Below are positions 1-47,600 of a stretch of 64,000 bases of DNA, in pieces. The DNA is taken from assembly GCA_033439295.1 (NCBI GenBank), contig JAVTLE010000013.1, forward strand, positions 868,001 to 932,000, read 5' to 3'. A program made the translations under genes and the position numbers. Each line of letters starts with the position of its first letter. Position 1 is the stretch's first letter. This DNA is from Deuterostichococcus epilithicus (taxonomy: Eukaryota; Chlorophyta; Trebouxiophyceae; Prasiolales; Stichococcaceae). The notes beneath the pieces are model-generated. The model saw nothing but the letters and a program-made list of their open reading frames with translations, was not told the origin of the DNA and ran no database searches.

Positions 1-3000
1 GGAACCAGGGGACGCTGTTGCGTCGGTGCACGGCTTTAACAGCTTCAGTTGGTGTGTCAAGGGACAACAATGCGCAGGGAAACACTGAGCCGCCGCACCA
101 TTGCGGGACGGCCCCCGTGAGCGCGAAAATGTGGATGGCGGAGGGGCAGGGGTGGGGGAGGAAGCGGTGAAAACACACTGGGCGCCGCACCGGTGCAGGG
201 CAGCCTCCATGAACGTGTGCAATCGGGCTGCAGAGAGGGGCCCGGGGGGGGGGTTCAGGGTGCCGGCACGGACTGGACGCCGCACCGGTGCAGGGTGGCC
301 TCTGTGAGTGCGGGCACCGAGTACAGCTGTGGCGGCCAGCGCCGCAGCAGCGGCAGCAGCTGGTCGTGGTGCGCTGGCGACAGCAGGAACGCCGTGAGCA
401 CCTGCGCGCAGAGACGCCGCCCTGACGCAGACAGCCCGAAAGCGTCTTTCCGATGCTCCCAGATAGTCGGTGACCGACGTTATGATTGCACCGACCTGAT
501 GATTGCAGGCAGCCGAGCCGGTGGGCTTCAGGCTCTAGCACGAGAGCACAGCGCAATTGCAATTGCAGAAGACCACTCAAGTTTCCCGCCGACTTTGTCG
601 CTCGTGCGAGTCAGCGAGATGCCGTACCATCTCATATGCCTGCCGCCGCAGCTGCGGCGCCATGATGCCGATGGGGACGTGCGGCGCCAGCACCGGCAGC
701 TGCCTGTGCTGTGCAAAGATGTAGACCTGCCGCTCCCACGCCGCAGCGTCGTCCTGCGTGGCACGATAAGCAGACACTGGCCTGCTGGCTTCTGCCTGCC
801 TCTCACCATGTACCTGTCACCCAAGGGCGCCACTTCAAAGCAGCCTTCGAATCGGAATCACAGGATGCCTGAGATGGGTTTGAAACACGACGAAGCATCA
901 ACAGGCATATCGCGTCTCAGCCCAGTGTCACTCGCCATGGTGGCGCTGCTGCCGCCAAGTACAGGGCCAGCTTCAGGACAGGCACGCGGGTTCTGAATGT
1001 ATGTTGTCATTCACCGACCTTCAGCAGCTCGGGGCACAGCGCGGCGGCGTCAGCAAACTTACGCTGCCCCAGCAGGAACTGCAGGTACTGCATCGCCACC
1101 TGCGGTGCCCCACACGCAACACCCTCACGGTGAGCTAGGGCTCCAGCCTCCCCAGAACACATCAGCGATAGACCAACAGCGTGCAGAAAGGAGTCCTGGG
1201 AGGTCTGTTCAGCCACAGGTCGCATGCGCCACTGCATGGCTTGCACCACACAGCTGACACCCTGATATTCCCGGCGACTGATCGTCACACTCAGCATCGA
1301 CGAGACGCAGCCAAGACAGCTGAGCCAGGACCGGCGGCGCGCCCACCTGCTGGTGGTTGTGCTTGCGCAGGCTGCGGTCGGTGGCTGCGATGGCCAGCGC
1401 CTCCCGGAAGCGTCGCCGCTGCAGCAGCCACGCCACCCGGTCGTCCCCGTCGCGTGGCCGCCCCACCACCACGTCCTGTTCCGAAAGATGCATTCGCCAC
1501 CGTTCCTCCGGAATCTGGTCACCACATTCAGCTGCGCTTGTGCAGAAGGACCGGCTGGAGGTGCTGCATCTTCTCCCAACTCCTTTGCAGCTTTGTAAAA
1601 GTTCTGTAAAAGTTCGAACCGTCACGACAGTATGCCATGTAGCCATTCCCACCCCGCATCCGCCCGACTGCCCCACCACCACGTCCTGCCGCAATGAGAT
1701 ATTTTCGCAACAGGAATGCAGTGCTGCCGTCACCCCAAAGCACGACTGATCAAGCTCCACTTGTTGTGCAGTCGCCTGTGCAAACATTGAAGATGATGCG
1801 GCGCCGCGCATTTTCAACGTGCAGGTGGTGCCTGTGCAGAGTCCAGCCGGAATTGGCAGGGGCCGATCGCCTTGAGTTTAGAGTTGGACCAAGACCAGGG
1901 GCGCACGCATGGGGTGACAATGTAGTACAGTGGCTCGTAGCCACCAGGCCACCACTTGTACTCTGCCTTCTTCGGGGCGGTCAGCCGCCTGTCCGCCTGC
2001 AACGAAGTCCGACGAGATAGTGCCGTCAAGCCTCCACATTCGTATTCCAATGCGCAAAGCATGGATCACAGAGCTTTTAAATGTACAAGGGGGCAGGTTG
2101 GTGGCATTGACAAGGCGGTGGCAGTGGTGCTGTCCTCCTGGCACTGGCTGCGCCAAGTCGCAAGCCAAGTCGCATCTCTGCAGATATGTCACCGGGCGGC
2201 CTACCTGCAGGGTGCGCTCCTTCGACAGCGGATAGTAGGTTGCGAGGGACGCCGCGTGATCAGGGCCGCTGCGCTGCAGGCCGGCAATTGGCAGCACGTC
2301 CGACGCCAGGCCATCCCCCCGCCACGACAGGATCTTCAGCTGCACAACGACAGCGAAGCAGATGTGGGAGAAGCTTGAAGCTGAAGGGTCAGGGTGCCCG
2401 GGCTTGTTGCCAGTGCGACGGAACCGCAATTGCTGGCGCAACTCATGCCAGCCTTATGCAGGATGTTCAACTTTTGATTAAATTATTGATCAATTCAATG
2501 AGTGGTCGAATGCCACCTTCAGCATGGTTTGCCATACACATACCTCTGGGAAGGCCTCGTCGTCTGCAACGTCGTCTGCAGTCGCGCCCTCCGCCGCCGA
2601 GTGATGCAGCTGCGTCAGGAGCGCCATGTCCTGCCCAAAAGGCGCCACTCCCTGCTGGCACACGGGAGGCAGACCATTGCCAGGCAGGGTGGTGCTGGTT
2701 CCGAGTTCACATCTAGGCTCTCTGACAGCAGGATCCAGCTGTGCATCCAGCCGTTCAGAGCAGTGAAGGCAGTGTAAGCATTGTACCTCCACATACCTTG
2801 TCCCTGGCAGCGTCGGAGGTGCTGCATCAGGGGCACAGCACAACCGACGGCAGCAGGTGTTGCTGTCTTAGCCGGAAGATAGTATGTCCTGTGACGTGCT
2901 GAGCATGCACATCCTCCGGGTGTCGTACACCACCGGCTGTCTTATGGAAACAGGAAGGCTGTGATGTGCGGGAGGCGGCCAAGACAGGCCGCTGACGGGT

Positions 3001-5825: not shown

Positions 5826-8800
5826 ATGGCGCTCAACATGCGCCTGTCCTCAGCCGCTGAAGCTTCGTCATCGGCCATGGACACTGTGTCCTGCATGGCC
5901 GGCGGCCGCGGGTGAGTTGTGCGGCAGGCTGTCTCCTGCTTGCCGACGGCGTGACGAACTGTTCGAACCGTGCGTATGGAGCAGATGATTGGCCCGTCAG
6001 TCAGCGAGGGAGGTACACAGCGAAAAGGGCAAAAGCATATGCTGGTGTTATCCAGTGTCGCTGTGGCCACCTCGGTTCACGGCGCGCCTCTCATGCGTCG
6101 CCAGCTGGCGAAGCGATTCAGCGTTCATTGTGGATCGCCCGCCACGCCGTTTCTGCCTGTCCTGGCGACACGTTACTCTCCGATGCAGCTGTCCGTTTGT
6201 GGCTGCAAGAGCAGTAACTCCTCATTGGGTGTCCAGTCTCTGGCACCCTGATTGTTGTAATCTGCCTTTGGATGGACGTTCGTGTTGTTGCACAGTCGCT
6301 GGGCAGGCTCGGCGCTGTGCTGCTCACACTGGCGGCATTTGTGTCGGCGCTCGCGGGCCTGTTGCCCCCGATCGACTCAACACCTTCTGCAACTGGCGGC
6401 ATCACGATCGGCAGGCCTCAAGCCGCTTATGTCTTGTCGTGCAGGCTACAACACGACCATCACAGCGCAGCAGGCTGCGGCAGCCGCTCCAGCACATTTT
6501 TCTCGCCGCGGGCGCCGTCGCTGCAGGCGCAGCGGCGCCAGCGGCGCGCAGAGCAGCAGATCTGCAGCGCCACGGCGCTTCGCCCCCAGCGCTCGGCACA
6601 GCAACAGCAGCAGCAGGCAGAATCGCGGCTGCAAAACGCAGCCGCAACACCGGCCACGGTGCTCCAGCCGGCACGGCAGCGGACAGCCACAGTGCCGGAT
6701 GAGGGGCGAGATCAGCGTGTGCGTGACCGGGAGGAGAGGTGTGTGAATCATGAGGCATGGGAGGGAGTCAATAAGGCATGGGACCTCACCTCGGATGCAG
6801 CCTTGCAGATGGCTGCACGCCTGTGCCGGACTTGTGCTGCGCATCGTCTTCTGCGCAACGGAAGCGTCACAAGTCTTCTGCACAGCATCCCTGTGCGTCA
6901 TGCTGCTGTCGTCTAGCATGGTGTGCCGTGGCCCAGCATCGTCGGAGGCTGCCAGCCGACTCGGCCGCGCCTGACGGGCACCACTGCCGGGCCTTCGCAG
7001 GCAGGCGCGCGGCGGCTTCGAGGCAGAGGCGTACGCCATGCAGCAGTGCGTGGCGCTGCACGAGCAGTGGCTGAAGGACAAGACGCCCTCGAAGCGCAAT
7101 GCGCGGTGGGAGGGCGGCGTCCTCGACGACGCGTACAGGTGCGCAGCTCCCCGCCTCAGGCCGACCACGACAGTTCTGTGACTCGTCCGGAGGCGGCGCC
7201 GGGTCAGCAGTGTCATCAGCGGCTGGGCCTATGGCAGCGCCCCTCGTAGCCGTCCTCTGAGGCTCTGGAGAACCTCAGCCTCCCTAGGGTGTCCGCTCCC
7301 CTGCTCGGACTTGTAGTACTGGACGTTGCAGGCACGCCGTGGTGTTTAACGGATCCAGAGAGTCCTGCTGCCTGCGCTTTTGTCTCTCGGCTTCCTGGCA
7401 CCCCGAATGTCTCTCGCCCATCACAGGCGCGCCGGCGTGGTGACGAGCGAGTATGCGAAAACTTTCTACCTGGGCACCAAGCTGATGACGGCAGAAAAGG
7501 CGCGGGCGGTGTGGGCTATCTATGTGTGGTGCCGCCGCACCGACGAGCTGGTGGATGGCCCCAACGCCTCACGCATCACCCCCGAGGTGATGGCTGCCAC
7601 CCTGCGGCGCTCCCATGTCAATGCAAGATAAAACAGCATGTCCTGCCCCTGCTGCCGCATCTCATCGCGCTGCAACCCTGCAATCGGCGTCGTGTCTGCG
7701 CGGTCGGTTTTCTGTCTGCAGACAGGAGACAGGCGCGCGGTCTGCTTCCCCCTTCATGCTGTCATGCTTTGTATCAATGACAGGCGCTGGAGCGGTGTGA
7801 GGATCGGCTGGAGGGTGTCTTTGGACTTGCAGCTCGGTTAGTTGAAACAGAGTCCCAGATGCTGTGTAAACCACCCTAAACCTTTAAACCCTGTCGGCAG
7901 GCATTGGACCGGTGGGAGGAGCGGCTAGAGGGCATTTTCGATGGCCGGCCGTACGACATCCTGGACGCGGCGCTGACAGACACCGTGAGCCGGTACCCGG
8001 TGCACATCCAGCCCTTCCGCGACATGATCGACGGCATGCGCATGGACCTCGTCAAGTCCCGGTGCGTCACAAACTGACATTTCTTCATGCCGCGCTGGAT
8101 GCGGCAGAGGCTCCAGCTGCCACAGGCTTGCGCGTGAGGTGTCTCGTGCTTTGAGCCAGCACTGCCCCCGGGAGGTGCTTTGTTGTGTTTGCTGCACCGC
8201 TGCACGCCCAGCGGTCACCCCAACCATGCACATGCGGACGTATGCGGCGCGTCTGATGGAGGGCGCGATTCAGGGTGGTCCACCGCGATCGAGGGAGAAT
8301 GCCATCTCGACTGACACTCGAGCCCTGACCGAGCCCACTCCTCACCCTTCGACCCGGCAGGTACAAGACGTACGATGAGCTGTACGGCTACTGCTACAAG
8401 GTGGCGGGCACGGTGGCGCTGATGACGACGCCCGTCATGGGCATTAACCCCGAGTACACGGTGCCCACCCCCCCTCTTTTCCTCCCGTTCGCGGCGGCAG
8501 CCCTTGATATACGAAGATAGGTGCTTGCTTTTGGGGGCATGGGCGGCACTGCCCTGGCAGGGACACAAAGCGGCAGTAGAGCCGAGGTTGTCCAGGGAAT
8601 ATCAAGATCAATTGAACTTGGTCTCCCCTGTGTTGACCAAGCACAGCTCCTGCTGGCGTGAGGTGCTTCTGCCCCCTCGCTCGCCTGGAAGCCTTGCCCT
8701 GCTTGCCCAACTCTCAGGCCCCACCGAGAGGGTGTGTCAAAGGCGGCGCTGGCGCTGGGCACTGCAGGTCGTTCGTGGGCGCGTAAGGTGTACGTAAAGA

Positions 8801-10096
8801 GATATTCAGATGGAGTGTAACTCCAGGCTGCACCTGCTTTCAGGGGCCGCTGGACAGCGTGTACAAGGCGGCGCTGGCGCTGGGCACCGCCAACCAGCTG
8901 ACCAACATCCTGCGCGACGTGGGCGAGGACATCAACGAGCGCAACCGCATCTACGTCCCCCTGGACGAGCTTGCCGAGGCGGGCATCCAGGAGACCGACG
9001 TGAGCCCCGCCCCCGCCCCTGCAGCTTTCCAGTTGGCTGCAATTGCTGTCACAGATGCGCTCGGCCGGCTTCTTGCCCGCCCGGGGCACCACCAGTGGGG
9101 ACTGCTGACTGTCGCGCTTGTGCGGTCTGCATGAATGGTCCACCTGGAGGCATCATGACGCAGAATGGCTTGCTATGCTGAGCAGACTGGCTTGCATGTG
9201 CAGATCGTCAACGGCGGCATGTTCTCGACGACGACGGGCAAGATCGACGACCGGTGGCGCAAATTCATGACCGCTCAGATCCGGCGCACGCGCGACATCT
9301 TCGCCGGCGCAGAGGCCGGCGTTGATCAGCTGGCGCCTGACGCACGGCTGCCCGTCTGGTGCGTTCTACGGCATCTAAAATGTAGGGATCCAGGGTGGAG
9401 AGCTCCCCCCCCTGCGACATGCGTGAGCTGGTCGAGTTTATCAACCTGCTCCAGCCCGCGTCGTGCCGCAGCAGCATCTGGCGTCCGGCTGCCCTTCTTG
9501 TGGTGCGAATTTTGCTTGCGGCAGAGCGCGTGGTATGCTTCCAGAATTCTCTTGTGGTCTGCTCAGGCTCTCGTCATTTTCTTCAAACAGCAAGCCTGCA
9601 CCATCCAGCAAAAAGGTCATGCGACCGCTGCACACGCCTTCCTCTGCAACGGAGGGGTAGCGAGCTAATGTATCTCGTGATGATGCGCGCAGGTCCGCGC
9701 TCATTTTGTACCGCCAGATTCTGGACTCCATCGAGAAGAACGACTACAACAACTTCACACAGCGCGCCTATGTGCCCAAGTGAGTGTGGCATCCGCGCCG
9801 CCGGCAGTATGTCAACGTCCCTGTGCTCAAAGATGTTGTGCAACTTGCAATGGTCAAAGATGTTGTGCAACTTGCAATGGTCAGCATGGCAGCTCCGGGC
9901 AAGCTGATGATGCTGTCGAGCCGCATACCTTCTGTCTGATCAGTCAAACCTGCACACAAGCAATGTTGCAACGGTTTGTGGCCAGGCACTGACCCTTTTC
10001 ATGTCTGCCCCCCTGGACAGGTACAAGAAGTTCCTCAGCCTGCCGCAGGCGGTGCTGCGTGCCCAAAACCCCACCAAGGCGCTGCTGCGGCGCTGA
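5826..10096 (+). CDS. PSY: Phytoene synthase, 9 exons, 372 aa
   Basis: The enzyme condenses two geranylgeranyl diphosphates to phytoene, the committed step of plastid carotenoid synthesis. Exons, all phase-consistent: 5826-5911, 7001-7138, 7427-7586, 7901-8061, 8361-8460, 8844-8999, 9204-9358, 9693-9779, 10021-10096. Both Asp-rich diphosphate/Mg sites are present: DELVD in exon 3 and DVGED ([18 protein letters not shown]) in exon 6. Other family blocks are [39 protein letters not shown] and [20 protein letters not shown]. Exon 1 encodes a short Ser/Ala-rich leader that could be a plastid signal; it was chosen because its ATG and GT site join exon 2 in phase, and it is the least certain exon. 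Total length is slightly short for the family. Introns 3 and 5 each carry a diverged copy of the start of the next exon. A TGTAA at 10511-10515 is a candidate algal poly(A) signal. Confidence 0.95.
7781..7838 (+). repeat. Exon-4-like relic inside PSY intron 3
   Basis: Starting at 7784, directly after a CAG, the sequence translates [14 protein letters not shown]. The real exon 4, 117 nt further on at 7901, reads [14 protein letters not shown]. About three quarters of the first 41 bases match, many differences are synonymous or conservative, and the acceptor AG is kept. After about 45 nt the similarity ends. Confidence 0.75.
8712..8768 (+). repeat. Exon-6-like relic inside PSY intron 5
   Basis: After TCTCAG (8712-8717) the sequence follows the opening of exon 6 (8844 on). 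It includes a 24-base identical run coding AALALGT in the real exon. A single-base indel around the GTGTAC codons puts the copy out of frame. The copy begins 126 nt before the real exon. Confidence 0.8.
9827..9880 (+). repeat. 27-bp perfect tandem repeat, two copies, in PSY intron 8
   Basis: The units 9827-9853 and 9854-9880 are identical. They sit 48 nt after the exon 8 donor. The repeat has no coding role. Confidence 0.85.
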
Positions 10097-11175: not shown

Positions 11176-14100
11176 TCACAGTTCAGCTCCTACCTCTGCG
11201 GCCTGCTGGCGGAGGCGCTTGCGCAGGGCAGCAGGCGCTGTCTCGGCGCGCTCTAGCAGCAGCTTGTGCAGCAGCACCAGGAATGTGCAAAGCTCCGGCC
11301 GCGGCGCCGGGCCTGTGACGAGTCAACGACGCCCATGAATGACAGCCAGAAGGAGGGGCCCCCGTCCCGGACTGGCAGGGGCCTTGAGGGTTTAGGCGCT
11401 CGAGACACGGGATGCGTCGATGCCGGCGCGTCGACCTGCTCCGCAAGCTGTGCTGCGCGCCGCGCAGCTGCGCGTTGGTCGTGGGCTCGGCTCCAGGTGC
11501 TTTGTGCTCGGCGCACCAGCGGCCGACAGGGAGCACACACTTGCAGCTGCAAGAACCTCCAGAAGACGACTTCGAGGTGCGATGCCGCACGCGTCCCCGC
11601 GATGCGCCTCACTCCCTGCGCAGCGCCCGCTGCCGTGCTCCTCACCCCGAGTCACTCAGGCTTGCGTTGGGCGCAGGCCCACGAAACCGGAATTGCAGCA
11701 GCGCACCCAGCAGCGCTTCCATGGCGCGCACGAGGGCGGTGAGGTGTGTGACGGCGCCTTTGACGTCGCCGGCGGCCTGGCAGCAGTTCAGCAGCGGCGT
11801 GCGGCAGTCCACCGCGTGCAGGTGCAGGCCGTGCGGCTGGCCCGGGCCGCCGCAGCCGGCCAGCACTCCCTCCGCCTGGGTCCGCGCGTCCGCCCACCGC
11901 TGCGCGCGGGTGTGCGGCAGGGTTGGGGGCTGAGGGTTGAGGGTTTCGAGAGCTCCTTTCCGGGCCCCTGCCCGATGCGTGAGCGGTTCGAGGCTGCAGG
12001 CTGGTATCGCTGGCAAGGCGGCGGCGGGGGGGCGCCCGGCCGCCGGGGACGTGGGGGAGGGTCTGCGGCACCGCCATGCCGGCAGGCGCAGTGCCGGCAG
12101 GCGGCGCGGCGGCCACGGCGTGACTGCCTCGACGGCCTGCGCTCGAGCACTCAGACATGCCAGCTGCTGCGACTGCCTCCGACACTGGACCCTACGTCCA
12201 GTGGAGTTACCATGGCAACGGCAAGCGAGACAGAGAGGCGCGGCGCGCACCCCCGCCTGTGTGAGCGCCATGACCAGCTGCCAAGCCTGGCCCGCTCTGT
12301 CCACAACGTCCTGGCAGCCGCCGCCCTGCGGCGTCCGCGCCAGTTTCTGCCGCCCGCACTCGCAGCACGTCCACCGCTGCGCCGCCGGCGCCGCCCCGCA
12401 GGCGCCGGCGCCGGCGTCGGCGGCCGGGCGCGGCGGCGCGAGCATCACGCCGCCGCAGCTCGCCTTCTCGCAGCACACGCCCTGCGCGGGATCAGGCTGG
12501 CAGTCTCATCGCTGCTTACAAAACCCCAGGTCGAGGCTGTTAGCAATTTCAGATAGTATGCAGATTGCATCTCCCACCGCAGCATCGCACAGCAGCAAGG
12601 AGGAAAAGGTTCGATTGGGTGGAATGTGTCAGTCCAAACTGCCAGCCAAACGCCACATGAGGGCTGCACCTCCAAACAGCGGTCCCCAGCACCAGCAGAC
12701 ACGTGACAGATGAGGAGCAGTCCGGCTAAGGGTATTTAAGTATCTCAAAACCCCTAGTCCGGCTTGGGGAGGGCGGACCTCCAGGAAGCGGTCTGGGGAA
12801 TAGGCCAGCGGCGCGGCGCAGCGGGCGCAGGCGCACGCGAAGAACTTGGTCTCCGCCAGCAGGCGCCCCCGCACCGCCCGCGGCTCCAGCAGGTTGATGT
12901 ACTGCGTGGCAGGGGGTTACAGGATGTTGCTGCTCCGCCCACTTCTCCTTCAGTGGATCAGGGAGTTAGGGAGGAGAGGATCTGTCTTGCATCTGCCGTC
13001 GCAGGCAGCTGAAGAGAGATGTGTGTGTGCGTGTGGCTGCCCAAGCCATGCTGTGGCTGCCCAAGCTATGCTGTGGACGCCTTTGTGCGCATCAAAAGGG
13101 TTGCATTCCATGCCCACCTGCACGGACAGCTCCTGCTCCTTTTTGATGGCCTCCACCGCCCGCACCTCCATGACGTCACCTGCGACCAGCAAGGTGGTTC
13201 AAGCATCAGCCTTCTGCATTTAGCATTCAGCATTTGCCAGCGCGTGCATGCAGCAGCCCCTGTGAGCTCTCACACCCTTCTCATGCAGCACGACCCGCAG
13301 CCGCCCTGATGACATAGCAGAGGATGGCGTTTGACCTATCCACTGTTTACCATGCCCGCTGTGTCAAACCCCACACTGCCGCCTGATGTCCAGTGAGCCA
13401 AGGGGAGGGGGGCACCTGTCGACACGTAGCAGCAGCTGGGCGCGCACGAGTGGTTCAACATGCTGAGTGCCTGCGCATGGAAAGGAGCCACGCCTTCCAG
13501 GCCCGATACACGCTCGATGTACGCCTGGTGGGCGGCCAGACCAGCTTCGGCAGGTTGTAAGGGCCTCCCATGCAGCTGAAGGTACTTGCCCCTGAAGATG
13601 TGGTTGCTGTTCGAAGAATCAGCAGCCGATGCCAGCATCCGGCGTGGCTGCGGCGCAGCATCAGGTGGAGCCTTGTGAGGACCTGCGAAAGCACCCAGCA
13701 AGCCCAGGCGCCCCGCACCGGGAACATGCCGAAGCCCTGGTCGGTGTTGGCTTCGGCGGCGGCGCCCACGCCGTGCGCATTGCCGTTCACGGCTGCCGCC
13801 GTGCGCCGCAGCCGGTCCGCGCAGCCCGGCTCGAAGGCGCCAGCCTGCTGCACGGCCTCGTGCAGCTTGCTGCGGGGACATTTTCGATCAATCGTTTCAG
13901 CACGACTAACGGACGCCTGGTGCATGGCCTCGTGTAGCTTGCAGCGGGGCGCCCCGGGCAGGCAGCCAGATTCTGGACATGGGGCACGCCTGCTGGCACC
14001 AGTGAAACAAGCGCCGGCTGGAGCCGGCGACCGGGAAGAGCTCCCAACTTGCAGGCAGCTGAGATGGAGACAGGGGTGCATGACGCACGCATGCCCTTGC

Positions 14101-16218: not shown

Positions 16219-16398
16219 ATGCGCTTCGTCTCTCTGGAATCCCTTAGCTGGGGCATGGTGGCGTGTGGTACCGCGGCTTGCGCCAGGCTGGCATCAGGCG
16301 CCATGCGCATGCGCTTCGTCTCTCTGGAATCCCTCAGCTGGGGCATGGTGGCGTGTGGTACCGCGGCTTGCGCCAGGCTGGCATCAGGCGTCACCGCA
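16219..16398 (+). repeat. 90-bp tandem duplication covering the DET2-like start codon
   Basis: Units 16219-16308 and 16309-16398 are nearly identical. Each begins with ATGCGCTTCG. The unit is exactly 30 codons and stays open through both copies, so the upstream ATG would give a protein with a doubled N-terminal hydrophobic segment. Confidence 0.92.
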
Positions 16399-18816: not shown

Positions 18817-19294
18817 GGTGACTCGCCAGTTGCACCGGTAAATACGCGCAGAAAGTCAGATCTGAGCACGGAGTGTGTGCCTTGTCACGGCGTTCCCTGG
18901 TAGATCTTGACGTGATGCCCAAGATCTTCTGAACGATTTGCACAAATGGCGTGGATGTTTACGAAAATTTACTGGATTTTACAGAGGACATGCAGATGGC
19001 AACGCAGAAGCCTGCAAAGACAGGGTCAGAGGTGCAATGAGAGGTTTACACAGCACGTCCAAAGCCGGTGCTCGTTGACCCGCCACACTACAATCGAATG
19101 ATTGCGGTGCCAAATAACTAGATACCTCTGAAACAAGGTCTACAGCAAGGCTGCACAGCAAAGTAATTTCAGGCCAGCGTCATGTCGTGACAAGCTGCTC
19201 GGTGCACAGAACATCGGGACCCCGCGCGTGTCATCACGCTCCCTCAAGTCAAGAGCCGTCAGCGCCGGATGCAGGCAGACTGGTTGGTCGTCGA
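18817..19294. other. Intergenic region between LACS 3' end and the mitochondrial-type gene
   Basis: Both neighbours are on the minus strand, so this holds the LACS 3' untranslated region and the promoter of the downstream gene. Around 18930-19000 it is AT-rich. No gene is seen. Confidence 0.45.
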
Positions 19295-24043: not shown

Positions 24044-24389
24044 GGCTGCTGCTGATGATCACGGCCGCCTGGTGGTCCACTGCCGCACCCCCTCCCACTG
24101 TGGTGTGGCGGCAAAACCCCTGCTGCACCCTCAGCTAGCTAGGACCTCGCCGCGTAATCAAATTCGCCTGATCGGTCCTTGCGGCTGTGATAGACGTGCG
24201 TGTGCGTCGTGATAGGTGCAAATCCAGTGGGTTCCCATCGGCATCGAAAGCGCCATGCCGTCCAAAGTTGCAGGACAAATCATGCGCAAATTAAGTTCAG
24301 TTGACGGTCAAGTAATATTCGCGGAACAAAGGGGCTCCGCATACGTGTGTCCGGCACACAAGCCGAGGTACGAGCCTACCGCCGCTGCC
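24044..24389. other. Intergenic region upstream of LACS
   Basis: This holds the LACS 5' region and the 3' end of the coiled-coil gene, both minus strand. No gene is seen. Confidence 0.4.
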
Positions 24390-30700: not shown

Positions 30701-33700
30701 GCAGTCGAGGAGCCGAGGCTGTAGCTTTCGCGGCATGACATGTACCGATGGATCCGGGTTCTCCACAAACTGTCAACCTGTCCTGAAGCGTGACACCGCA
30801 TCCACACCCCGCAGGCGGCTGCTGGACCACCTACAGAACACAGCGTCCTTTGACGTGAGCCCGCTGCACTACCTGGTGCTGGACGAGGCGGACCGCCTCC
30901 TGGATCTGGGCTTCGAGCAGAAGATTGGTGCGCGCGGTTTGAGCCCTGCTGTTTGGGAACCGCCTGATGTCGCCGTTTGAGAGGGGCGGGTCATTGCGGT
31001 AGCTGCCAGGCGGGACTGCGGCGCTCAGGGCTCGCTGAATGGCAGGCTGCAAGGGGCTGTCCGTGATGCTACCACGGAGGCGAGCACGTGGTTCCATGCC
31101 TTTGCGGATGCGGCGCGCCCAGCTCGCCACAGGAGTTCCACACCTGGCTTCCCCTTGGTGTCTGACAGCGGTACTGCCGACCTGTGGTCTGACATGGCGG
31201 ACATGTGCCACGTTACGTTGCAGCGGACATCGTGCACATGCTGGACGACCGGGCCACCTTCCCTCGCCACACGGTGCGTTGAATGGTGCACGTGATGAGT
31301 GACAACTGCCAAAGGAGGCGCACCGAAAGATGGCTTGCGCGCTCTTGTCTGTCCTGTCACATCGGGCTCGCTGCCGCACGACGGTGGAGTGCTCAAAGCA
31401 GGTCCCATGTAGTGCCGCCTGATCGACGCAGGCGCTGTTCTCTGCCACGCTGCACTCGAAGTTGGGGGCACTGGCCACGCTCAGCCTCAACGACCCTGTC
31501 GCCGTGGGCTTCAGGTGATTCGCCTGCTTCTCGACGCGCAACCGTCTTGCTGACCTGCCACATGTGCAGGCCCTGGACGCACAGCCAGTCCTCGCACGCA
31601 TTTCGTCCCTGGAGCAAGACGCTGGAGCTACTAATTGCGGTTGTGCACTGTGCTCGGTCGGCGACCGACGTTGGGGAAACTCGAGACTCAGCCACAATCC
31701 CTCGGTCTACCACTTGCGCAGCTACACAAGAAAGGGGCGGGAGCTGATCGTGACGGGTGCCACTTCAGAAGCGGCGTCGGATGACGAGGACGGAGCGCCG
31801 CGCCAGTTCGAGCTGCCGAAGCAGCTCAAACAGCACTACCTGGAGGTGCGGCCCACGAGACCAGAGGAAGCACCCAGCAAAGCATCGAGCCTGCTCACAG
31901 GCGCTGGCGCGGCTTGGCGTCTTGCGCAGCTGTGCATCTCCTGTGAGATGCGAGGCGCCATCTTCCGTGCGTGCCCTGCGCAGGATCCTTGAGCAGCCAA
32001 GTGCCGCCAGGCTGACGCGCACGTCCAGGCAGCAGCATGGCGCGGCGTCCAGCTCCTCGATGGCAAGCTTGTGACGTTGAGACGAATGCCCATTTCAAGA
32101 CCCCTTTCGCCTCGCTCGCAAACTCAGGTGCCCTGCAAGCTGCGCCTGCTGGCGCTGGCAGCGCTGCTGCACTCCAAGGCGGCGGCGCGGCGCGGCGGCG
32201 GCCCCGACTCCGGCGGCAAAGTGGTGGTCTTCCTGTCGACGTGCGCCGGCGTGGACTTCCACTACGCTCTGCTGGCTGGCGTGCTGCCCGCCGCCGCCGG
32301 TGCGCGGCTGCCGGGCAAGCTTTTCAAGCTGCACGGCAACCTCGCCCAGGTGCGGCTTTCCTCGCTGCTGCAGGCTCGATTGGAGAATCTTTCCCCCCGG
32401 ACATGTCGCACAATGCTGTGCATCACGGCGGCAGCTGGTCGTCATTCGTCAATGCCCACGCTGTGTGGCAGTCGATGCGCAGGAGATCGCGCGCTGAGTA
32501 TCGAACGCAATGCCGCTCACAGGCAGCTGGGCGTCGGCCGCATGCGACTTGAGAATCGCTATTTTGTGAACCATCTGACTTTTCCGCCACCAATGAAACC
32601 TACAGTCCGCGCGTACACCTGCAGGCAGAGCGCACGGCGACATTCCTGGACTTCACCAAGAGCAAGTCGGGCGTGCTGCTGTGCACCGACGTGGCGGCGC
32701 GCGGCCTCGACTTCTCCGCGGTGTCCTCCATCGTCCAGTACGACCCGCCGGGCGAGGCTTCCGAGTGAGCGTCTCACCCCACAGTGCGGCCGCAGCAGAA
32801 CCCTTAGCCCGCCCGCCTGCATGAGAATGCGATGCCTCAGAGCCTCAGGGCCGCAATTGGCATCAGCCAAAGGCCCCCACAGCCTTGGCATTGCGCAGAA
32901 CGGGGCCAGTGTGCATCCGCAGACACTCAGACACTCAAACCCTGCTGCCGGGGCGCAGGTACGTGCACCGCGTGGGGCGGACGGCGCGCATGGGCCACGC
33001 CGGCGAGGCGGTCCTCTTCCTGCTGCCCAGCGAGGCCCCCTACCTGCAGCTGCTGCGCGGCCACAACGTGCATCTGCAGCCGCTGCCGCTGGACCCGGTG
33101 CTGCGGCAGCTGCCCGACGCCGAGGCCGCCTCGGTGGGCCTTGTCACTGCGCCAACCGCTCGCGCGGCGCCCCTCGCTGCTCGAGCGTTTGCAATCCGAT
33201 GTGGCCACGGTAGCATTGCCCTGTGCTATGGTACATGCATGCTTCATCACGGGATCAATCATGTGTGTGGGGTGTGGTCAGAGGAGGGCACGACGCAGAG
33301 TGGCTGCTGCCAGCAGCTGCTGCGGCTCTAGAGAGCTTTTCGATGAACCCCCTGCCAACATGGATACAAAGGACAGCCGTGGACAATCATTCTTCACCCC
33401 TATGAGATCATACAATTATTTCCACCCGCAGGGCGCGCTGATGGACGCGATCGATGCTGACAAGGATCTGCGGGCGCTTGCCAGCGCGGCTTTCCGCGCC
33501 TTTGTGCGCGCCTACGCCGCGCACCCGGCCTCTGTCAAGGACGTCTTCCACATCAAGAAGCTGCACCTGGGCCACGTTGCCGACAGCTTCGCCCTCAGGT
33601 GCGCAACATGCGACTTCGGGCATAGGCTCGCACCTGACAGCAGCCCGATTTTGCCCATTATGTGCGCGACAGTTTCGCCCTCAAGTGCGCGCCTCGCATT

Positions 33701-34572: not shown

Positions 34573-35071
34573 TCACTTGCGCGCCTGCGACTGCCCCTGC
34601 CGCTGGGGCCTGCCCTCGCAGGAAGGCTTGACGGATTGCCGCTGCGCGTAGGTCAGCTTAGCGGGCGGTGCCATGGCGTCCGACAGTCGGCCGTGCCACC
34701 ACTCGGAGGCGGACAGCGGGCAGTGAATCTGAAAATCGTACACCGCCAGCGTCTTGACGCAGAAGACGCAGGGAGCCGCGCAGCCGAAGCTGCCGTCGCA
34801 AAGGCAGCGCCAGATGAGCAGGTGGCTGCCCATCTTGCGCCGGATCCAGGTGGCCATGCGCGCCGGCCGCACGCCGTGCCGCCGCGCCTGGTCCTCCCAC
34901 GTCTGCAGCAGGCGGCGCTCCGCGCAGCAGCGGCCATTGGAGTTGGTGGAGGCGTCACCCTTTCCCTTTGGCTCTTTCTTCGCCTTTCGCCACCGCCAGA
35001 GCGTCCGCCGAGCCCTTGGCCGCCACCGCGTGCACCGTCTTGCCCGTGTGGGTGGTGCGCTTGCCGCCCAT
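34573..35071 (-). CDS. Small protein with cytidine-deaminase-like zinc signature
   Basis: The conserved frame on the minus strand reads RCCAERRLLQTW, then ARMATWIRRKMGSHLLIW, CAAPCVFCVKTL, YDFQIHCPLS, WWHGRLSDAMAPPAKLT and a basic tail to the stop at 34573. CAE followed about 45 residues later by PCVFC fits the (H/C)xE...PCxxC zinc and catalytic signature of the cytidine deaminase fold, with Cys replacing the usual His. That assignment is inference from the motif. The conserved frame has no early ATG. The best model starts at the ATG at 35071 (MGGKRTTHTGKTVHA) and removes a roughly 60-nt intron with donor GCG/GTGGCG and acceptor AAAG, giving about 150 residues. Otherwise a frameshift must be assumed. 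The gene is convergent with DDX31 and divergent from the MBD4-like gene. Confidence 0.6.
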
Positions 35072-35768
35072 GGAGGGCCGGGGGTGCGGGTAGCTTGTCG
35101 GGATGTGGCAGTCACTCTCGAATCCGCTCAGCCGGTTGCGGCAGCGACTGCATGTAGACAGGCAGCACGTTGAAGATGCAACGAATTTCTTTGTGCGTCA
35201 GGCATGCTTGCGACATGCCGCGATGCACCTGCAGGGCAAGCACGAGGTCGGATGGCTCGGCGCTCAGGCCGCATCGGCGCACCTCGAGCTTGCAGGGCTT
35301 CGCGACTGGCTGTGAGGGCTGCGGACGCCTGCTGCAGAGGGCCGTAGTTGTGCGCGAGGGGCTGATGACCGCCACGGCTCCCGGGCTGACGTCTCAGTCA
35401 GCAAGGGGGCAGACCTGCCATTGGGGGGCCAGGCTTCTTGGGCGCAGCACGAGGACATGCGTACAGACAGCAGCAAGACCCATCCACCGTGCTTCGCACC
35501 CAGATCGTCACCATTGTAGATATTTGGTGCATCGGGTCAGCGTCGGCCTCATGTGAATGGCTGCATCAATTACATGTGATTGAAAGTCGCTCCTTGCGCT
35601 GCATAACGGGGAGCACAGCAGGCTAGTCAACATGGCTTTCGGCTGCGGCAGATGCAGATACAGGTCCGGAAATATACCAGCAGTCGGCGCACGCATGCAT
35701 GACCCCGTGTGAAGCTTTGTTGCGGCGCTGGGCCACTTACCGACAGCTTAAGTTGTCCTGCACTGCAG
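35072..35768. promoter_or_regulatory. Divergent region between the deaminase-like and MBD4-like genes
   Basis: This should hold the promoters of both genes and perhaps an unseen first exon of the MBD4-like gene. No coding motif is recognised. Confidence 0.4.
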
Positions 35769-38700
35769 TCCGAAGGGCTGCGCAACGTGCAAAAGCGCGG
35801 ACTACAAGCCAACGCCCGCATGCCTGGCGAAGCGCGCAGAAAATGGCGGCAAACCCAAGCGCCACTCCCCCAAACCGCCCGCCGGCAGCCAGCAGCCGGC
35901 TGCGCCAGCCGCCGGCTCCGCCTTTGCAGTCAAGCAGCCGCGGGCGGCCAAGGACTTCGTGCAAGAACCTGACGGATCAGCTCCGGCTGCGCCATCTTCA
36001 GCAGACGCGGCTCCAGTTGTGACCGCCATCGCGTCTGCCGGCCAGAATGCGGCGGGCGGTGCTGCGCCAGCCGCAGCAGCAGCCCCGGCAGCGCAGGCGG
36101 CGCCGGTTGACAGCGCGAGCAGCGACAGCGGGGACAGCGGTGACGGCAGCGACGTCGGCACCTCTGGCCCTGGCAACTTGGATCCGGCGCTCATGGCGCA
36201 GAAGCCGCGCTACACCTACTGCAGCGGCGCTTCGCCCCTGAAGGCTGCGCAGGGACTGGCCAACATGCGCACCTCGATCAAGGCCCTGGGTAACAATGCA
36301 GCTTCATAGCTCCTCCCTGTAGAAGCCTGAGGGCTTAAGTTTCAACTTCCTACCACAGAATGCTCAACAGTGTTCACGAACAAGGCACAGGTACAGCATA
36401 CTTGCCAACATGCGAGAAAGAAGGCACTGAATCAACATCATCGTTCCGTCGGACAGGCAGACAGCTGAGCGGCAACACAAAGGGACCAACCCGATATATT
36501 CGTGTTGCTGAGCAGGCAGGGAGCTGAGCAGCGAATGGCTGTGCACCGTCAGCGAGCTCGGCCACCTTGTGGACGTGTGTTACAACCACATCCCGAAGTC
36601 AGGCATCCGTAACAGGGGCTGTCGCACTGTCGCCGAGGTGCGCGTCACGCGTGGCAGCGCCTGGCGCAGGCATCCATGAGGCTCTATGGCTCAGTGTGGG
36701 TGCTTCGATCTCCAGCATTGGAGCAATAGCAAAACCGAAGCGACCTGCTGTTGGTTTTTGCTGCTTCAGCATGTGTCAGACTTTACGGACCTGGGATTGC
36801 AAGCGAGGCCAACTTTGCCCGATACCTCTGCGAGCAGGTTGTGGCGGTGCTGGACGAAATCGCAGCTGCGAATGTGCCTGCAGACGCCGCCGCAGCACCG
36901 GCAGCGCCTGACCCGCCGCCTTCAGCAGCCAACGGGGCTGCGCCGGCTGTGGCGCAGCCATCGCAACCGCAGCCGCAGCAGTCGCACCCGCCGGCGGCAG
37001 GCTGCCGCATGGCAGCCGGACAGGAGGCTGGGACGGACGCCGCTGCAGGCGCACCCTCCGAACGGAGGCTGGGCGGGCGCAGCAAACCGGAGAACAGGGC
37101 TGACAGGCAGCAGCAGGCTGCTGCGGCAGAGCAGCAGGAAGCAGAAGGGGACACTGGCGCAGTCGCCCGGCAACCAGCGAGGCGCCAGCCGGGGTCTCCC
37201 CGCAAGACGCCAGCCAAGCTGGCGGCGGCGGGGCAGCAGGACGCGCAGGCGGGGCTGCAGGTTGCTGCGCAGGCTGCGGCCGCGCCGGCAAAGCGGAAAC
37301 GCGGTCGGCCCAGCAAGGCGCAAAAAGCGGCAGAGGCGGCCGCGGCTGCCGCGGAGGCGGCTGCGGCTGCGGAGGAGGCGAGTGGACGCAGCAGCAAGCG
37401 CCAGAAGGTGGATGGCGCTGGCGCTGACGCCAAGGCCGGAGGAGCAGAGGCGGTGCTCGCTCCACCAGCCCAAACGAGCTCAATGCTGCACAGGCGGGTT
37501 GCTTTCAATGCACGCTGTGCTCCTGAGACAGCAGGGAGGAGCGTGCAGTCCTTTGGAATGCGTTCCTCAGAACCGACCATGTCGATCCGGCAGTCCACTT
37601 GCCACATGTGCACCTCAGCCATCTGACCTTGATGAGTGATAATATCACAGTGCCGGCGCCGGTCCCTCCGCCGTCACCCCAATCTCTGGCCTGGACGAGC
37701 CGCTGCTCGGGCTGCCGACCAAGGAGGCCATCAGCCCGGTCACTGCGGGGGGTGGACCCAATGCAGCCGCTGCGTACGACTTCGCGCCTGGCGGCGCCGC
37801 CGCCGGCATCGTCGGCGGCCGCGGAGGCAGCGCCGCCGGCGGCATGGGGCGGGGCTCGGGCGGCGCAGCGGCTGACGGAGAGCAGGCTGCGAGTGACGGG
37901 CTGGCGACAGCAGCCGCAGCCAAACAGGCGCCGGCGGCAGCGGAGGCGGCGGAGGACTCACTCAGCGCTGGATTCTCTGGCGCCTCCGTCAGCGACCTTT
38001 CGGGCGGCGCCACGACGCCGCTTCGCGGCAGTGCTGGTGGCACGGCAGGCCCAGCCGCCGCAGGCGGCGCCGTCTTCCTGTCCAAATTGCAGGTGTGGCA
38101 CCCTGACCTGCGCCATTCCTTTTTGGCCTGCAACAGCACCTGCAACAGCAACATGAGCTATGTGCTTGCGGCAAACGTCCGCCATCCACTGCAGACATTC
38201 AGTTGCTGCTAGCATTCCGACTTCCGCCCCAGCTTCCCTGCAACATGCCGAGTGAGGCAGACGCTGCCACGGTTCGGTGCAACGCAATAGCTTCCTGGCT
38301 TACAGCATGGTGCACTGCATGGTGCACTGTAAAACCTAAACCCTCACTTGCGGCTCGTTCCCGGCCGCAGGAGCGCATGCAGCAGGTGCGGGCGGAGAGG
38401 ACAGCAGCGCCTGCGTCGCCATTGTGGGCCACGTCGGCGCTGTCGTCTGGGCGCGTCAGCCGCGGCCGCCGCATGTCGCAGGCCGGGGGGCTGTCCGTGA
38501 CCGGGGACCCCCGGGTGAGAGCTCGTGCAGCGACATGCAGTTGCGCTGGGCACAGGATTTCGGCCAGTGTCGCCTGGCTGCATCGTCTTGAAGGCAAACA
38601 GACTGGCCTTGCAACCCTGCAGGCTGGCGCGAAGATCCCGACAGCAGCGTCAGACACCGGCGAGGCCTGAAAGGCACCTGAAAGGCACAAATTCGGACTG

Positions 38701-41627: not shown

Positions 41628-44600
41628 ATGGTGTCAAACAGCACCAATGGAAGTGTATCGCCTGGCGGCCAGGCAAAGGGGCTCAGCGTGCCGCAAGCAC
41701 AGGCCTTCACAAAGCAGCAGCTCCAGCAGCAACCAGTCTCGCAGGTGCACCTGCGTAAGACATACACATATTTACTCCTACTCTAATGCCTTGTATCGCT
41801 GGTGCGACTGTTGCCTCTGCAGAGCGCGCTGAATGTCAACCCTGATTCCTATGCACACAGGTAATGCCAGGCATGTCGGCGATGCCAGACCCATACGCAA
41901 ACCGCCCAGCGCTGCAGGGTGGGCAGCCTATGGCTGGCGCCATCGCCAACGGCGGCGCGGTGCCGCGGCAGCCCACCGCAAGCCCGCAGTCCGCCGCCAT
42001 GGCTGCTGCAATTGCGGCACTGCAGGTGCGGCCGATGCAGCAGCAGCCACAGCCGGTGGCGGCAGTGGCGCAGCCTGCGGCAGGTGGCGCGGCAGGAGCC
42101 TCGCTGCCAACGGCATATGGCTTCACACCAGCGCAGCTGGCCATGCTGCGCAACCAGATCATGGCCTTCCGCCGCCTCAAGGTTGAGAGCCGTCTTGTCA
42201 AGAATACTATCGACATAGACTCGCCAATAACATCGTTGCATCTTCCGTGCTGTCTTCGTCACAACAACTGTCACGATGTGCCGAGCCTGCCCTGTCGCTG
42301 TGCGCCTGTCTGTCAATCCCTCCAGCTGAATGTGCATGATGTCACCAGCTGACCCTGCCATGCCTGCACACCATCTGCAGAGCGGCAAGGAGGTGGAGCC
42401 AGACGTTCTGGCAGCCATCAACACCGGCGGTGCGGCCGCAGTTGCGGTGCAGCCACGCCAGCAGCTGCAGCCGCATCAGCTGCAGCCGGCGCAGATGCGG
42501 CCTGGCTCCCTTGCCTCACCGCTTCCGGCGGCTCGGCCGGCGCTAGCGCAGCTGCCGCGGCCGGCGGCACCGGTGCAGCTGACGCCGCAGCAGCAGGCGC
42601 AGCTGCAGGTGAGCTGCACGGCTGGCGATGCCCCCCACAGCATCATTGAAGCCGTCTGTTCGTGATCAGAAGATCCAGACTCAGCCTGGGTGTGATGTCG
42701 TGCCTGAACAGGAGCGTTTCAGGCCTGCCGCATATGCAGCGGCCTGGCGCTGCACTCTGCTGATTTCCTCGACAAGTGCGTGATGATCTGCAGGCGCAGC
42801 GGCTGCAGCAGCAACAGCAGGCAGCGGCGGCGGCCCAGCGTGCCGAGATGCTGAAGCGGGAGCCGGCGATGCACAGGCCGCTCACGGCGCCGCTGTTCAG
42901 CACCCAGCCGGCTGCACGGGCTGCGCCGCAGCAGCCGGCGCGGCCCGGCATGCCGGCCCCGCCACAGCCCCTGGTGCGTCTGGAGGCGCCGAGCCAGCCA
43001 GCAGCAGCCTGCGTGCAGGAGTCAGCCGTGGCACACAGGAATGCCGATCAGTGGCAGAAGCAGAGGCTGGTCTGTTCAGATCATGCGGCGCTGGTGACAA
43101 TTCACGACATGTCGCTCTCTCACACATTGCAGGATTACAGCGCTGCAGGTGGCCATGCATGGGACCCCGTTTCCTGCACTGACATAGCCTGTGCATGCGT
43201 GCAGACGCTGAACTTTGATATAGCGGGGCTGATGGCCGCGGAGCACCACAGGGTCGTCAGGCGCGCGCGCGCACTGCGACAGGCGGAGCTGGAATCGGAG
43301 CTGGCCGCCATCAAGCACGACCCCCAGGTGCCAATGAAACGCTCTGGAATGCAGATTGGGGCACAGACATGTGTGGAGACGGTCTGCACGATGCTGCAAT
43401 CCGCTGCGCCGAATGGTGAAAGCCAGGCGCGCACTCGGTGCTGCGCGCACCGCGCATGCTGCAGCTGCGGAGCGAGCTCCCTCGAGCGTTGGCGGCGGCA
43501 CATCTTGCACCGAACCTGGTTCGCCTGATGCGCAGGGCGCGACGCGGCGGCTGCAGCTGCAGATCGAGCTCCGGGGGCTGCGCCTCATCGGCGCGCAGGC
43601 GGCCATGCGCGCCAAGGTCGAGGCCAAGCAGGTAGGGTGCATCCGGCGGCCCACCCTCCAGCAGCTCGCCCTCCGGTCCCCGTCCCAATCCTGTGCGCAC
43701 TGCGGACACCGTCCCCAGGGCAGGCAGCACCTTCCACAACCGCCTGCATCCCCTGCGCTGCCCCCTCACACAAGTCGGTGTGCCTCCACAGCAACCGGAC
43801 ACCTCCACAGGCAGTCGGACACCTCCACGTGCCGCCACCTCAACATTGTGAATCTGGCCAATGTCGCACGTCGCAGGAGGAGATCCTGCGGCAGAACGAC
43901 CGCACGTACCGCAAGTTCCTGCGCTTCAATCTGCGCCAGCGGGTGGACATGCTGAAGGCGGAGGAGAAGGCCCGGTCGCAGCGCGGCTCCGAGCGCGCCG
44001 CGGCAGTCAAGTCGATGCGCTCGGAGATGGGCGACCGCGCCAGCGTCCTGCGCGAGACGCGCGCCGCGGCGGTGCGCGCCTCGCGGGGACAGGCCCTGGC
44101 ATCGTCCGCCCTTGCTGCCATTCGGCAGTAGACTCTAGAGAAAGCCTGGGACGGCGGCGGACGTGGTGGGGCTGCAGAGCTGTGCCCTCTGCGCGGGACG
44201 AGCCCGCAACGGACGGGCTCGTCAGGGGCGCGGCAGCTGGCTGCTGCTTGCAAGCACGAACAGCAGCGCCCCGCGGCCCCTGCATGGCGGGATCAACTGG
44301 GAGCTGAGCGCAGCGTGCCTTGAATCTCAGACACGAAAGCAAGAGCAGAACGAGAGGAGAGCCCTCGCTCGCGCGCAGGTGCGAGGCGTGGAGAAGGCGC
44401 ATGCGCGCCTGGCACGGGAGGCCAACAAGGCCGCCGACGACATGCGCGCACGCCGCATGGAGGCCCTGAAGGCAAGCGCTCCTTGCATCCTCCACTGTGC
44501 TCAGCACTATCAGACGCGCGATGCAACACCTGGCGTGGTTCCCCGTTCGGAGCGGGTGTGGAGCGCCTTCCGCAATCCACCTCTGCTGGGCCTTCGTCAG

Positions 44601-47600
44601 CTGTCCGTAGACAGGGCTCCAAAAATGATGTTGCAAGCGGAACAGCACATCAGAGGGAGACGATTTCACCTTGACCGGCTGTGCGACGTCCAGGCGCACG
44701 ACTTTGAGGCGTACCAGGAGCTGCTGCGGGAGCCGGGCAGCACCGGCGCCTCTGGCGGCGCGGGCGCGGACGAGCGCTACGAGGCCGTCTCCAAGTTTCT
44801 GGCGGACACGGAGGACTACATCCACAAGCTCGCCGGCAAGGTGGGGGGAGCTCGGGAATAGGTCGCAGCGTCGCAATACTTATGCATCCAGTACCTGGTC
44901 CATGTTTGACCGATGCAGGTGCGGAGCGCCATCCATATCCATGCGGCAGACACGGTCATGGGCTGCAAGTGGAAACCACGGCTGTCCTTGGCGCTGGTGT
45001 GGGCATCGCATGTTTCCGCACCACCCCTCACCCGGCTGCTGGATGCGCCCGCAGGTGGCCAGCGTCAAGCTGGGGCAGGAGGCCAGCGAGGCGGCGGCGG
45101 CGGCTGTGCTGGAGGCGCGGGCGACGGGCGCCTCCGAGGAAGAGGTCCGGGCAGCTGCCGCCGCAGCGGCATCCGAGGCAGCCTCCAAGTCGGAGCTCAT
45201 GTCGCGCTCGAGGCACCACGTCGGCGACGCCCAGAGCCGCTACTACAGGTGGGGATCGCAGGATCGGCTGGCGGTCCTCTGAGTTGCGCACTCCGCATGC
45301 TGCCCTTGCTGCGGCTGCTGCGACCTCGTCTGGCAGCTTGAGGGCAGGCCCTGCCAGGAGCCCAGGCGCTGTCTGTGCAAACCAGCTGCTGCCAACATGC
45401 CAGCGCCAAGAATGCTGTTGTCAGGCGCTGCCTCGCGCATGCCGACCGACCCCAGCCCGAACCCGACATCCCACACATACGCATGCATCTCACGCACCGC
45501 CCCCCGCCCCCTCGTGCAGCCTGGCGCACAGTGTGGGGGAGGTCATCCAGGAGGCGCCGCGCACACTAGTGCCGCCGCCGGGCGCGACGCTGCGGGAGTA
45601 CCAGATGGTGGGCCTGCAGTGGATGGTTTCCCTGTACAACAACCACCTCAACGGCATCCTCGCCGACGAGATGGTGCGCTCCCACGAGCTTGTTGCATCA
45701 AGATAGGTATCAAATTAGTCCACCCATCCGCTCGTGCATCGTTCTGTTGCTGAGCCCACAGAACTCATGCAGACGGCTTGCCTTGGATTTTCTGTGTGCT
45801 TCTTTGGCGCTCCCCCACCCAGCTGACGCAAAATCTGTGTCGGCCTGGGCTGGAGGCAGCAGCAGCAGCAGCAGCAACAGAGGCTCTCGATTGACTGTGT
45901 GCTGCTCTCTGCGCAGGGTCTCGGCAAAACAGTTCAGGTGCTTCCTTGCCTCCTACACTGGCGGCGCTGATGCTTTGATGATCTGGCTGAGCATGGCATG
46001 CATGCTGACGTGAGCAATCTGCTGGCCAAGCCGCCTGCACACGCCTGCATGGCAGCCGCGCCAGGCAGACGAAAGCCTTCAGAACCCTACACCCCGGCGC
46101 AGGTCATGGCGCTGATAGCGTACCTGATGGAGAAGAAGGGCAACTATGGCCCGCACCTCATCATCGTGCCCAATGCTGTGATGGTCAACTGGAAGGCGGA
46201 GCTCACGCGCTGGCTGCCCGGCGTGCGCTGCATCTACTATGTTGGCACGCGCGAGGTGCTGACCTGATGCCGTGCAGCATGTATTGCCCCCTCGTGCTGA
46301 GTGCTACTGGCTCGCCTTGGTGAGCAAGTCCCACCTGTAGGACAATAAGCCGGTACTGCTGCCCTTGCCTGGTGCTGCACAGCAGTTGGAAAGCCTGCGG
46401 CCAGGCTCACGTCGACTGCCAGGCTGTCGGGAATGTTGGGGCGGTCCTGCTGCTGGCAACTGCCCCCATGTGCAGATTCCCCACTGAACACGTGCAGGTG
46501 CGGGCGTGCATGTCCACGGCGGAGCTGGCGGCACTGCAGTCAGTTGCTGTTCTAAGTTCGGACAGTCGTCGTCGCCTTGCCCTTGACCCAAGAGGAGTTT
46601 TGACCTGAGTCGAGTGGAACTGTGGCACAGGTGCGGGCGCGCATGTTCACGGCAGAGGTGGCGGCGCTGCAGTTCAACGTGCTGGTCACCACCTACGAGT
46701 ACATCATGCGCGACCGCGCCCGTCTGTCCAAGGTGTGCTTGGCCAGTCTCCCCGTCAGCAGCAGTCCGAGCTGATGTCGCGCTGCGCAACGTTTCTGCAC
46801 TGTATGACCCAGGTCCTGCAGGCCAGACGGGATGATTCACAGATAGTGATGAACTCCGACCTGCGGATGCCTCTGGAACGACTCGCCTCCCCGCCTGACA
46901 TGCAGACATTTGCGGCGGCGAGCACACCGAGGTTCGTGGTGCATGCACCAGAAATCCTGTGTCTGATTATGAGGAGGGCCGAAACCCCGCTTCGCTGCAC
47001 CGCAGGTGGAGTGGAAGTACATCATCATCGATGAGGCGCAGCGCATGAAGGACCGGCAGTCGAAACTGGCCAAGGACCTGGACCGGTTCACCGCAGCTCG
47101 GCGCCTACTGCTGACCGGCACGCCTCTGCAGAACGACCTGCGCGAGCTGTGGTCCCTGCTCAACCTGCTGCTGCCCGCGGTGCGCCGGCCTGCTTTCATG
47201 CACCTCCTGTGCACACACGGCTGAAGCACAATGAGTTAAATCAGTAAGAAGCCTGGAGTAAAGACGGAGATGACGCCGGCATCTGCAGCAGAGGCATCTG
47301 CAGCAGAGGCATCTGCAGCAGAGCGCATTGGCCTGTTAATTCTCTGAACCTGGTGGCTGCCTTGCTGGCAACTTCTGCAGACTTGACTTTATGCTCTGCG
47401 GCTGCTCATGGCAAGGTCACGGTCATTGAATCGCAGGTGTTCGACGACAAGTCGATGTTTCACGACTGGTTTGGCGAGGCCCTCGGCGCAAGCGACAACG
47501 CCAAGGCGCCCGGCGGCGGCGAGGTGCCCTATTTTCATATCCCCCCTCCTTGTTCTCTCAGGTGAAATGTACACATCGTCCGCGCAGATGGGCATGCACC

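Follow-up and report, generated by a model that had tools for sequence, protein, structure and literature searches.

Lengthening of introns is usually credited to transposons. The closest described systems concern intron gain: tandem duplication has been reported for a potato RdRp case (PMC4974935) and for cases in Drosophila (PMC2891723), and a review of intron-gain mechanisms includes break repair with direct repeats from gap filling, as well as transposon-derived introns, among its topics (PMC3443670). The present analysis concerns a 64,000-nt stretch of the genome of the green alga Deuterostichococcus epilithicus (the window; C11:868001-932000, in a genome of 46.8 Mb and 21 contigs; G+C about 62%), in which introns seem to become longer through copies of the borders of their own exons. 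Green-algal origin agrees with the genes present, phytoene synthase and VPS41 among them. Edges of exons recur there as diverged copies, here termed echoes, and the copies themselves, their direct orientation and their position in the adjacent intron are directly observed. The portion of the Coccomyxa genome paper drawn on here gives a mean intron of 240 bp and mentions no such repeats (PMC3446292). Titles and abstract openings of the top-ranked results of literature searches hold no earlier description of exon-edge echoes, and a prior mention is possible, for instance in the Chlorella variabilis genome paper. As each event would leave a datable, countable scar, intron growth, neutral decay and splice-site competition could become measurable in one genome. 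Because echoes resemble true exon edges, they also put gene prediction and the alignment of RNA reads at risk, as illustrated by an apparently false 9-nt exon that our gene finder called at a VPS41 echo (1670..1688).

Exon-edge copies exceed chance expectation

All exon edges are predictions of a small hidden-Markov gene finder, self-trained on the window and on a 200-kb stretch of contig C1 (C1:500001-700000, hereafter the C1 block, with coordinates counted within the block). It called 43 genes and 463 introns over these two regions, with clear splice signals (CAG/GTGCG and YGCAG/G). A third contig sample, 50 kb of C3, was analysed with the gene finder as already trained. Simple repeats were filtered before counting in the near-diagonal, merged-pair and exon-blind scans, and because this filter apparently dropped the true DDX31 echo, whose score would pass, the scan counts are somewhat low.

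Near-diagonal matches at a spacing of 25-500 nt and a score of at least 16 number 18 in the window and 110 in the C1 block, against 0.25 and 4.3 in far-offset controls. When exons were compared with their own flanking introns, 461 introns yielded 11 upstream-exon and 18 downstream-exon matches at a score of at least 40, whereas 40 length-matched control pairings with introns of other genes gave none at that score. Most of these matches (26/29) fall in the C1 block, outside the window, and the window is also the poorer of the two at a score of at least 34 (1 + 6 in 131 introns, compared with 22 + 19 in 330). Probes of 60 nt from the window and the C1 block showed the same specificity, with exon heads matching the preceding intron in 24/425 cases and exon tails the following intron in 18/415, against 1 (heads) and 0 (tails) inverted matches; all other probe/intron combinations gave 0 or 1, and exon middles 0 of 76-89 per test. 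In the C3 sample heads matched at about the same rate (5/82), tails at a lower one (1/80), and every other combination gave 0. The initial annotation had proposed comparing junctions with exon interiors and controls, and that comparison reveals an excess at exon edges and next to none for exon middles or swapped introns. Chance or composition is thereby ruled out by all four kinds of control (swapped introns, far offsets, inverted matches and exon middles). Template switching with templated insertion, from which both orientations would be expected, does not agree with the direct and inverted probe counts.

The placement of the repeats is also tied to gene structure. Among 117 merged pairs in the window and the C1 block, 52 are exon-intron (35.7 expected under uniform placement), 8 exon-intergenic (3.3) and 23 exon-exon (16.6), compared with 21 intron-intron (32.5) and 13 intergenic (27.5). 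At spacings of 70-200 nt, with exon-exon pairs excluded and C3 included, one copy touches an exon in 62/75 pairs and the other 13 lie wholly outside exons, where uniform placement predicts 46% exon-touching pairs (binomial p 6e-11, a value that is too small because some pairs share one array and are not independent). This differs from the position independent of gene structure that is a trait of break repair with filler. Introns also hold short tandem repeats with a spacing below 70 nt, which seem unremarkable.

Echo-bearing introns are longer by about one repeat period

An echo at a score of at least 34 is carried by 44/544 introns of at least 60 nt, about one in twelve, with 6/375 below 300 nt and 38/166 at 300-999 nt (three introns longer than 999 nt fall outside these bins). 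The length test covers 42 of the 44, two having been dropped with a length minus spacing of at most 20 nt. Median length is 417 nt in these 42 introns and 241 nt in 500 echo-free introns. Subtracting the spacing gives a median of 274 nt, which fits the echo-free introns (Kolmogorov-Smirnov p 0.13), whereas subtracting the echo alone gives 376 nt, which does not (p 1e-12). The same subtraction of spacing takes the 12 introns with at least two echoes from 562 to 296 nt, and the median difference remaining within genes is 10 nt (Wilcoxon p 0.57, n=39). Since subtraction of the spacing restores the usual length and subtraction of the echo does not, the added piece corresponds to roughly the period and not to the echo. 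A gain of one full period, as plain tandem duplication requires, is thus found statistically over the 42 introns, which appear lengthened by roughly 120 nt per local duplication. Insertion of an exon snippet alone into an existing intron is ruled out by this length accounting, subject to the caveat on long introns given below.

On balance, we favour the reading that echoes are neutrally decaying remnants of duplications that took place locally at the borders between exons and introns. With each event the intron would gain roughly one repeat period, in most cases 80-140 nt, made up of a spacer and a copied exon edge of 20-70 nt in which the splice-site core is usually included. The edge adjoining the exon is presumably the spliced one and would keep being used because the protein constrains it, while the outer copy, being dispensable, would be left to neutral decay. 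The step itself may belong to replication or to break repair, either as slippage or as the filling-in of a staggered break that leaves filler between the copies. Break-repair filler is in keeping with the added length and with a spacer that is unique, but does not by itself fit the tie to splice sites. The initial annotation had suggested a mutational habit of short local tandem duplication at splice junctions; a recurrent local process at these junctions is borne out (direct, adjacent, above controls and present in two further contigs), whereas simple tandem duplication as the whole story is not, the intron half of the copies being missing.

Copied blocks usually stop at the splice site

Several observations weigh against local duplication with neutral decay as set out above. 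Intron-side similarity at p<=0.05 was found in 4/41 echoes (2/39 with another shuffle), whereas a neutral-decay simulation of plain duplication, matched to the identity of each echo, predicts 39.3, 35.9 and 29.3 of 41 when the ratio of indels to substitutions is 0.1, 0.3 and 0.6, respectively. Of the 8 echoes with at least 40 nt and at least 85% identity, 7.7-8 should show such similarity, yet p 0.05 is reached by none. In the exon-blind scan, the non-exon part spans at most 8 nt in 51/74 exon-touching pairs and the exon part in only 1/74, an asymmetry that faster intron-side decay explains in some part. That the block usually ends at the splice site is left unexplained by the favoured reading, and we know of no break-repair route with such a link to splice sites. 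Over 8 cases, arrays show no significant regularity of spacing (p 0.10), and better retention of echoes in long introns could exaggerate the length result.

The extent of the copies varies between loci. In the mean of 12 donor-side and 20 acceptor-side echoes, matching drops almost to background by about 8-15 nt beyond the exon edge, and intron-side similarity ends even sooner than exon-side similarity, a point absent from the initial annotation. At C1 block 130628-131351, 41/42 exon bases match with no aligned similarity beyond GTGG, and further exon-limited copies lie at C1 block 35503-35968 (50/54) and 182352-182870 (58/64) and in the BRM-like gene of the window (38/43). Copies that include the intron side are found at C1 block 197206-197781, 18950-19595 and 129698-130110, probably at 98691-99035 and 79390-79949, and in parts of the array at 132380-132980. 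Some weak remnant of intron-side similarity may exist more widely, as 13/41 echoes have an intron-side p <0.13 where about 5 are expected by chance. There may be two processes, or a single one that as a rule either loses the intron half or does not copy it at all. Hypermutable introns were considered and rejected: at C1 block 18950 two echoes are 86% identical over 69 nt and the two spacers 78% over 51 nt, so that in this one clear case the spacers seem not far ahead of the echoes in divergence, and the comparisons at 197206 and 98691 mix both and say little.

Plain tandem duplication across the junction, with neutral decay on both sides and with exon constraint and purged exonic duplications making the edges stand out, accounts for the direct orientation, the adjacency, the added length and the arrays that reach beyond the exon part, and the surplus of echoes at p <0.13 also speaks for it. 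However, the intron half is missing where it should still be readable, with 4 echoes showing it where 29-39 are predicted and none among the 8 best, which makes plain duplication with neutral decay insufficient; there are also few pairs wholly outside exons at spacings of 70-200 nt (13/75). It is unlikely as the only process, and we consider it a rather doubtful explanation overall. A bolder proposal, which we put forward only tentatively and regard as unlikely, is that duplication is linked to the splice junctions themselves, copying the exon edge as far as the splice core and lengthening introns by about 120 nt per step, and that it has largely built the long introns of this genome. One example of such a process would be repair at splicing-linked RNA-DNA hybrids, with ends set by bound splicing factors.

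Decay of the echoes and their splice sites

Mismatches at codon positions 1, 2 and 3 amount to 14.1, 10.8 and 17.3% over 48 echoes, a pattern that agrees with neutral copying together with some silent substitutions on the exon side, and not with a translated copy. Decay is observed to be even along the echo (34/48 testable, Fisher p 0.93). Three-copy arrays whose similarity extends past the exon part occur at C1 block 18950-19595 and 197206-197781, and at 132380-132980 five copies of an exon start are spaced 123-131 nt apart beside the first predicted exon, with CAG at the acceptor position in 5/5. In this five-copy array the third copy is the most similar to the real exon, and identity of echoes to the real exon (0.73-0.92) exceeds that among echoes (0.58-0.70).

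This last relation would be expected if the echoes were older tandem duplications in which repeated exon-to-echo gene conversion kept the exon half alike while the intron half drifted, although neutral copying gives much the same picture. Gene conversion would also account for the stop at the exon edge. However, mismatches are not patchy in the 34 testable pairs, and stretches of 40-60 nt are short homology for gene conversion, which makes this explanation distinctly unlikely.

For the splice dinucleotides, 6/48 echoes were dropped as low-complexity or more than 25 nt from the edge. The dinucleotide is intact in place in 24/42 and, allowing a 2-nt shift, in 31/42, where neutral decay predicts 0.76, or about 32/42, from identity alone. 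Median echo-site scores (best within 2 nt) are 2.8 for donors and 2.9 for acceptors, whereas for random intronic GT and AG the medians lie near 0 and the top tenths at 3.1 and 4.5, respectively. The real site outscores the echo site in 32/39, and the echo equals or exceeds it in 7/39, among them the BRM-like echo at 46495..46540, whose acceptor outscores the real one. The suggestion of the initial annotation that echoes could supply decoy splice sites finds no support in this retention, and although echo sites score above random sites and sometimes rival real ones, selected decoys or alternative edges that regulate splicing are very improbable, given dinucleotides kept no better than neutral decay predicts, mismatches across all codon positions and the general superiority of real sites.

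Spacers and further repeats

A whole-genome search of 4/41 spacers returned only each spacer itself, which speaks against a mobile element, although absence of a match is no proof of rarity. Over 39 cases, an intron does not contain further copies of its spacer, whether inverted or displaced, more often than by chance, and hairpins reach p<=0.05 in 4/39 spacers against 2/78 controls, with no difference in fold z-scores (p 0.57). Telomere-like heptamers (CCCTAAA/TTTAGGG) as repair filler are not claimed, as their 143 intron matches compare with a mean of 87 and a maximum of 244 for shuffled motifs. These heptamers seem often to lie 5-25 nt from the intron end in window, C1 and C3 introns.

At C1 block 78382-78554, in a gene that may encode a mitochondrial carrier, a 75-nt stretch that covers all of a predicted exon of 62 nt, together with the acceptor, recurs 98 nt further on (91%), with CCCTAAA-like sequence in the intron between the exon copies. 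An intergenic tandem repeat with a period of 153 nt, about 93% identical over 301 nt, starts at C1 block 153018.

Echoes and genes in the window

In the window, nine exon edges have echoes, with ten copies in total (Table 1). The initial annotation had described such echoes in the VPS41, PSY, SET, DDX31-like and BRM-like genes, and they were recovered at all five; the BRM-like gene has two more, at spacings of 92 and 138, than the spacing-133 copy named there. Its description of the DDX31 echo donor as weakened is fair, as the GT is retained but the preceding G is altered. The SET-gene echo has TG in place of AG. At the VPS41 donor edge the gene model ends, so that the echoes there are only presumed to be intronic. 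Two further cases were not confirmed, namely the echo in a 'mitochondrial-type' gene, which could not be matched to a locus, and that in 'DET2', which is probably a 90-nt tandem repeat at 16219-16393 (83/85 nt identical, with an open reading frame across both copies). No frame over this repeat shows coding signal, and Pfam gave no match for six frames within 16.0-18.4 kb or for another at 15.6-16.2 kb; coding signal is present in two short minus-strand frames nearby, at 17923-18159 and 18556-18780.

Table 1. Positions in the window of exon-edge echoes and associated features.
Feature	Position	Strand	Details
VPS41 exon end and donor, real copy	272..312	-	exon 286-401; gene model, Pfam Vps41
VPS41 donor-edge echo 1	177..212	-	spacing 95, 86% over 36 nt
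VPS41 donor-edge echo 2	91..125	-	spacing 187, 77% over 35 nt
VPS41 acceptor CAG and 16 nt of exon, real copy	1460..1478	-	
VPS41 acceptor-edge echo	1670..1688	-	spacing 210, 19/19 nt
PSY acceptor-edge echo 1	7781..7815	+	spacing 117; real copy 7898-7932, exon start 7901
PSY acceptor-edge echo 2	8734..8765	+	spacing 125, 29/32 nt; real copy 8859-8890, exon start 8844
SET-gene acceptor-edge echo	13915..13949	-	spacing 72; real copy 13843-13877, exon edge 13869
DDX31-like donor-edge echo	33667..33690	+	spacing 86, 22/24 nt; real copy 33581-33604, exon end 33598
BRM-like acceptor-edge echo	43440..43480	+	spacing 92; exon start 43536; TG in place of AG
BRM-like acceptor-edge echo	46495..46540	+	spacing 133; 38/43 exon nt and CAG
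BRM-like real copy of spacing-133 echo	46628-46673	+	exon 46631-46732
BRM spacer, echo to real acceptor	46541..46627	+	genome match at own place only (query 46538-46630)
BRM-like acceptor-edge echo	47653..47690	+	spacing 138; exon start 47793

A Pfam scan of 9/12 window genes (the three left out being 34573-35071, 56655-57064 and 58170-63839) identified Vps41, SQS_PSY, SET, DEAD with the SPB4 extension, TMEM192, AMP-binding, HhH-GPD and SNF2, and gave no match for the gene at 53549-54595. Pfam thus backs the VPS41, PSY, SET, DEAD-helicase and SNF2 genes at the echo loci, the names DDX31 and BRM for the last two being labels of the initial annotation. An inverted repeat of about 350 nt, 67% identical, lies at 55929-56272 and 56651-56999, partly in a predicted small gene.

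Comparison with known systems

Introner elements are multi-copy element families in introns. Like these and the transposon-derived introns treated in the review cited above (PMC3443670), the process described here involves intron sequence gained in many genes, but no repeated family is seen. Within the window and the C1 block, 14/465 introns have a match beyond 3 kb (E<=1e-3). Tandem exon duplication, with mutually exclusive exons, likewise places an exon copy beside an exon, for which C1 block 78382-78554 is the one case; the other echoes are one-sided partial copies, mostly of 20-70 nt, and not whole exons. Break repair with filler is alike in that direct repeats flank filler matching nothing else in the genome, as in the 4/4 spacers searched, but the echoes are 20-70 nt long, lie at splice junctions that already exist and add length to introns already present.

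Intron gain by tandem duplication resembles the echoes in that exon sequence and its splice signals are duplicated locally and in direct orientation, after which the copies diverge. Donor and acceptor flanks are alike over the intron length in 1/549 introns, at C1 block 138663-138797 (135 nt), which looks as would be expected for this kind of gain. The difference lies in the outcome: in tandem-duplication intron gain the repeat makes a new intron, whereas here an existing intron is lengthened.

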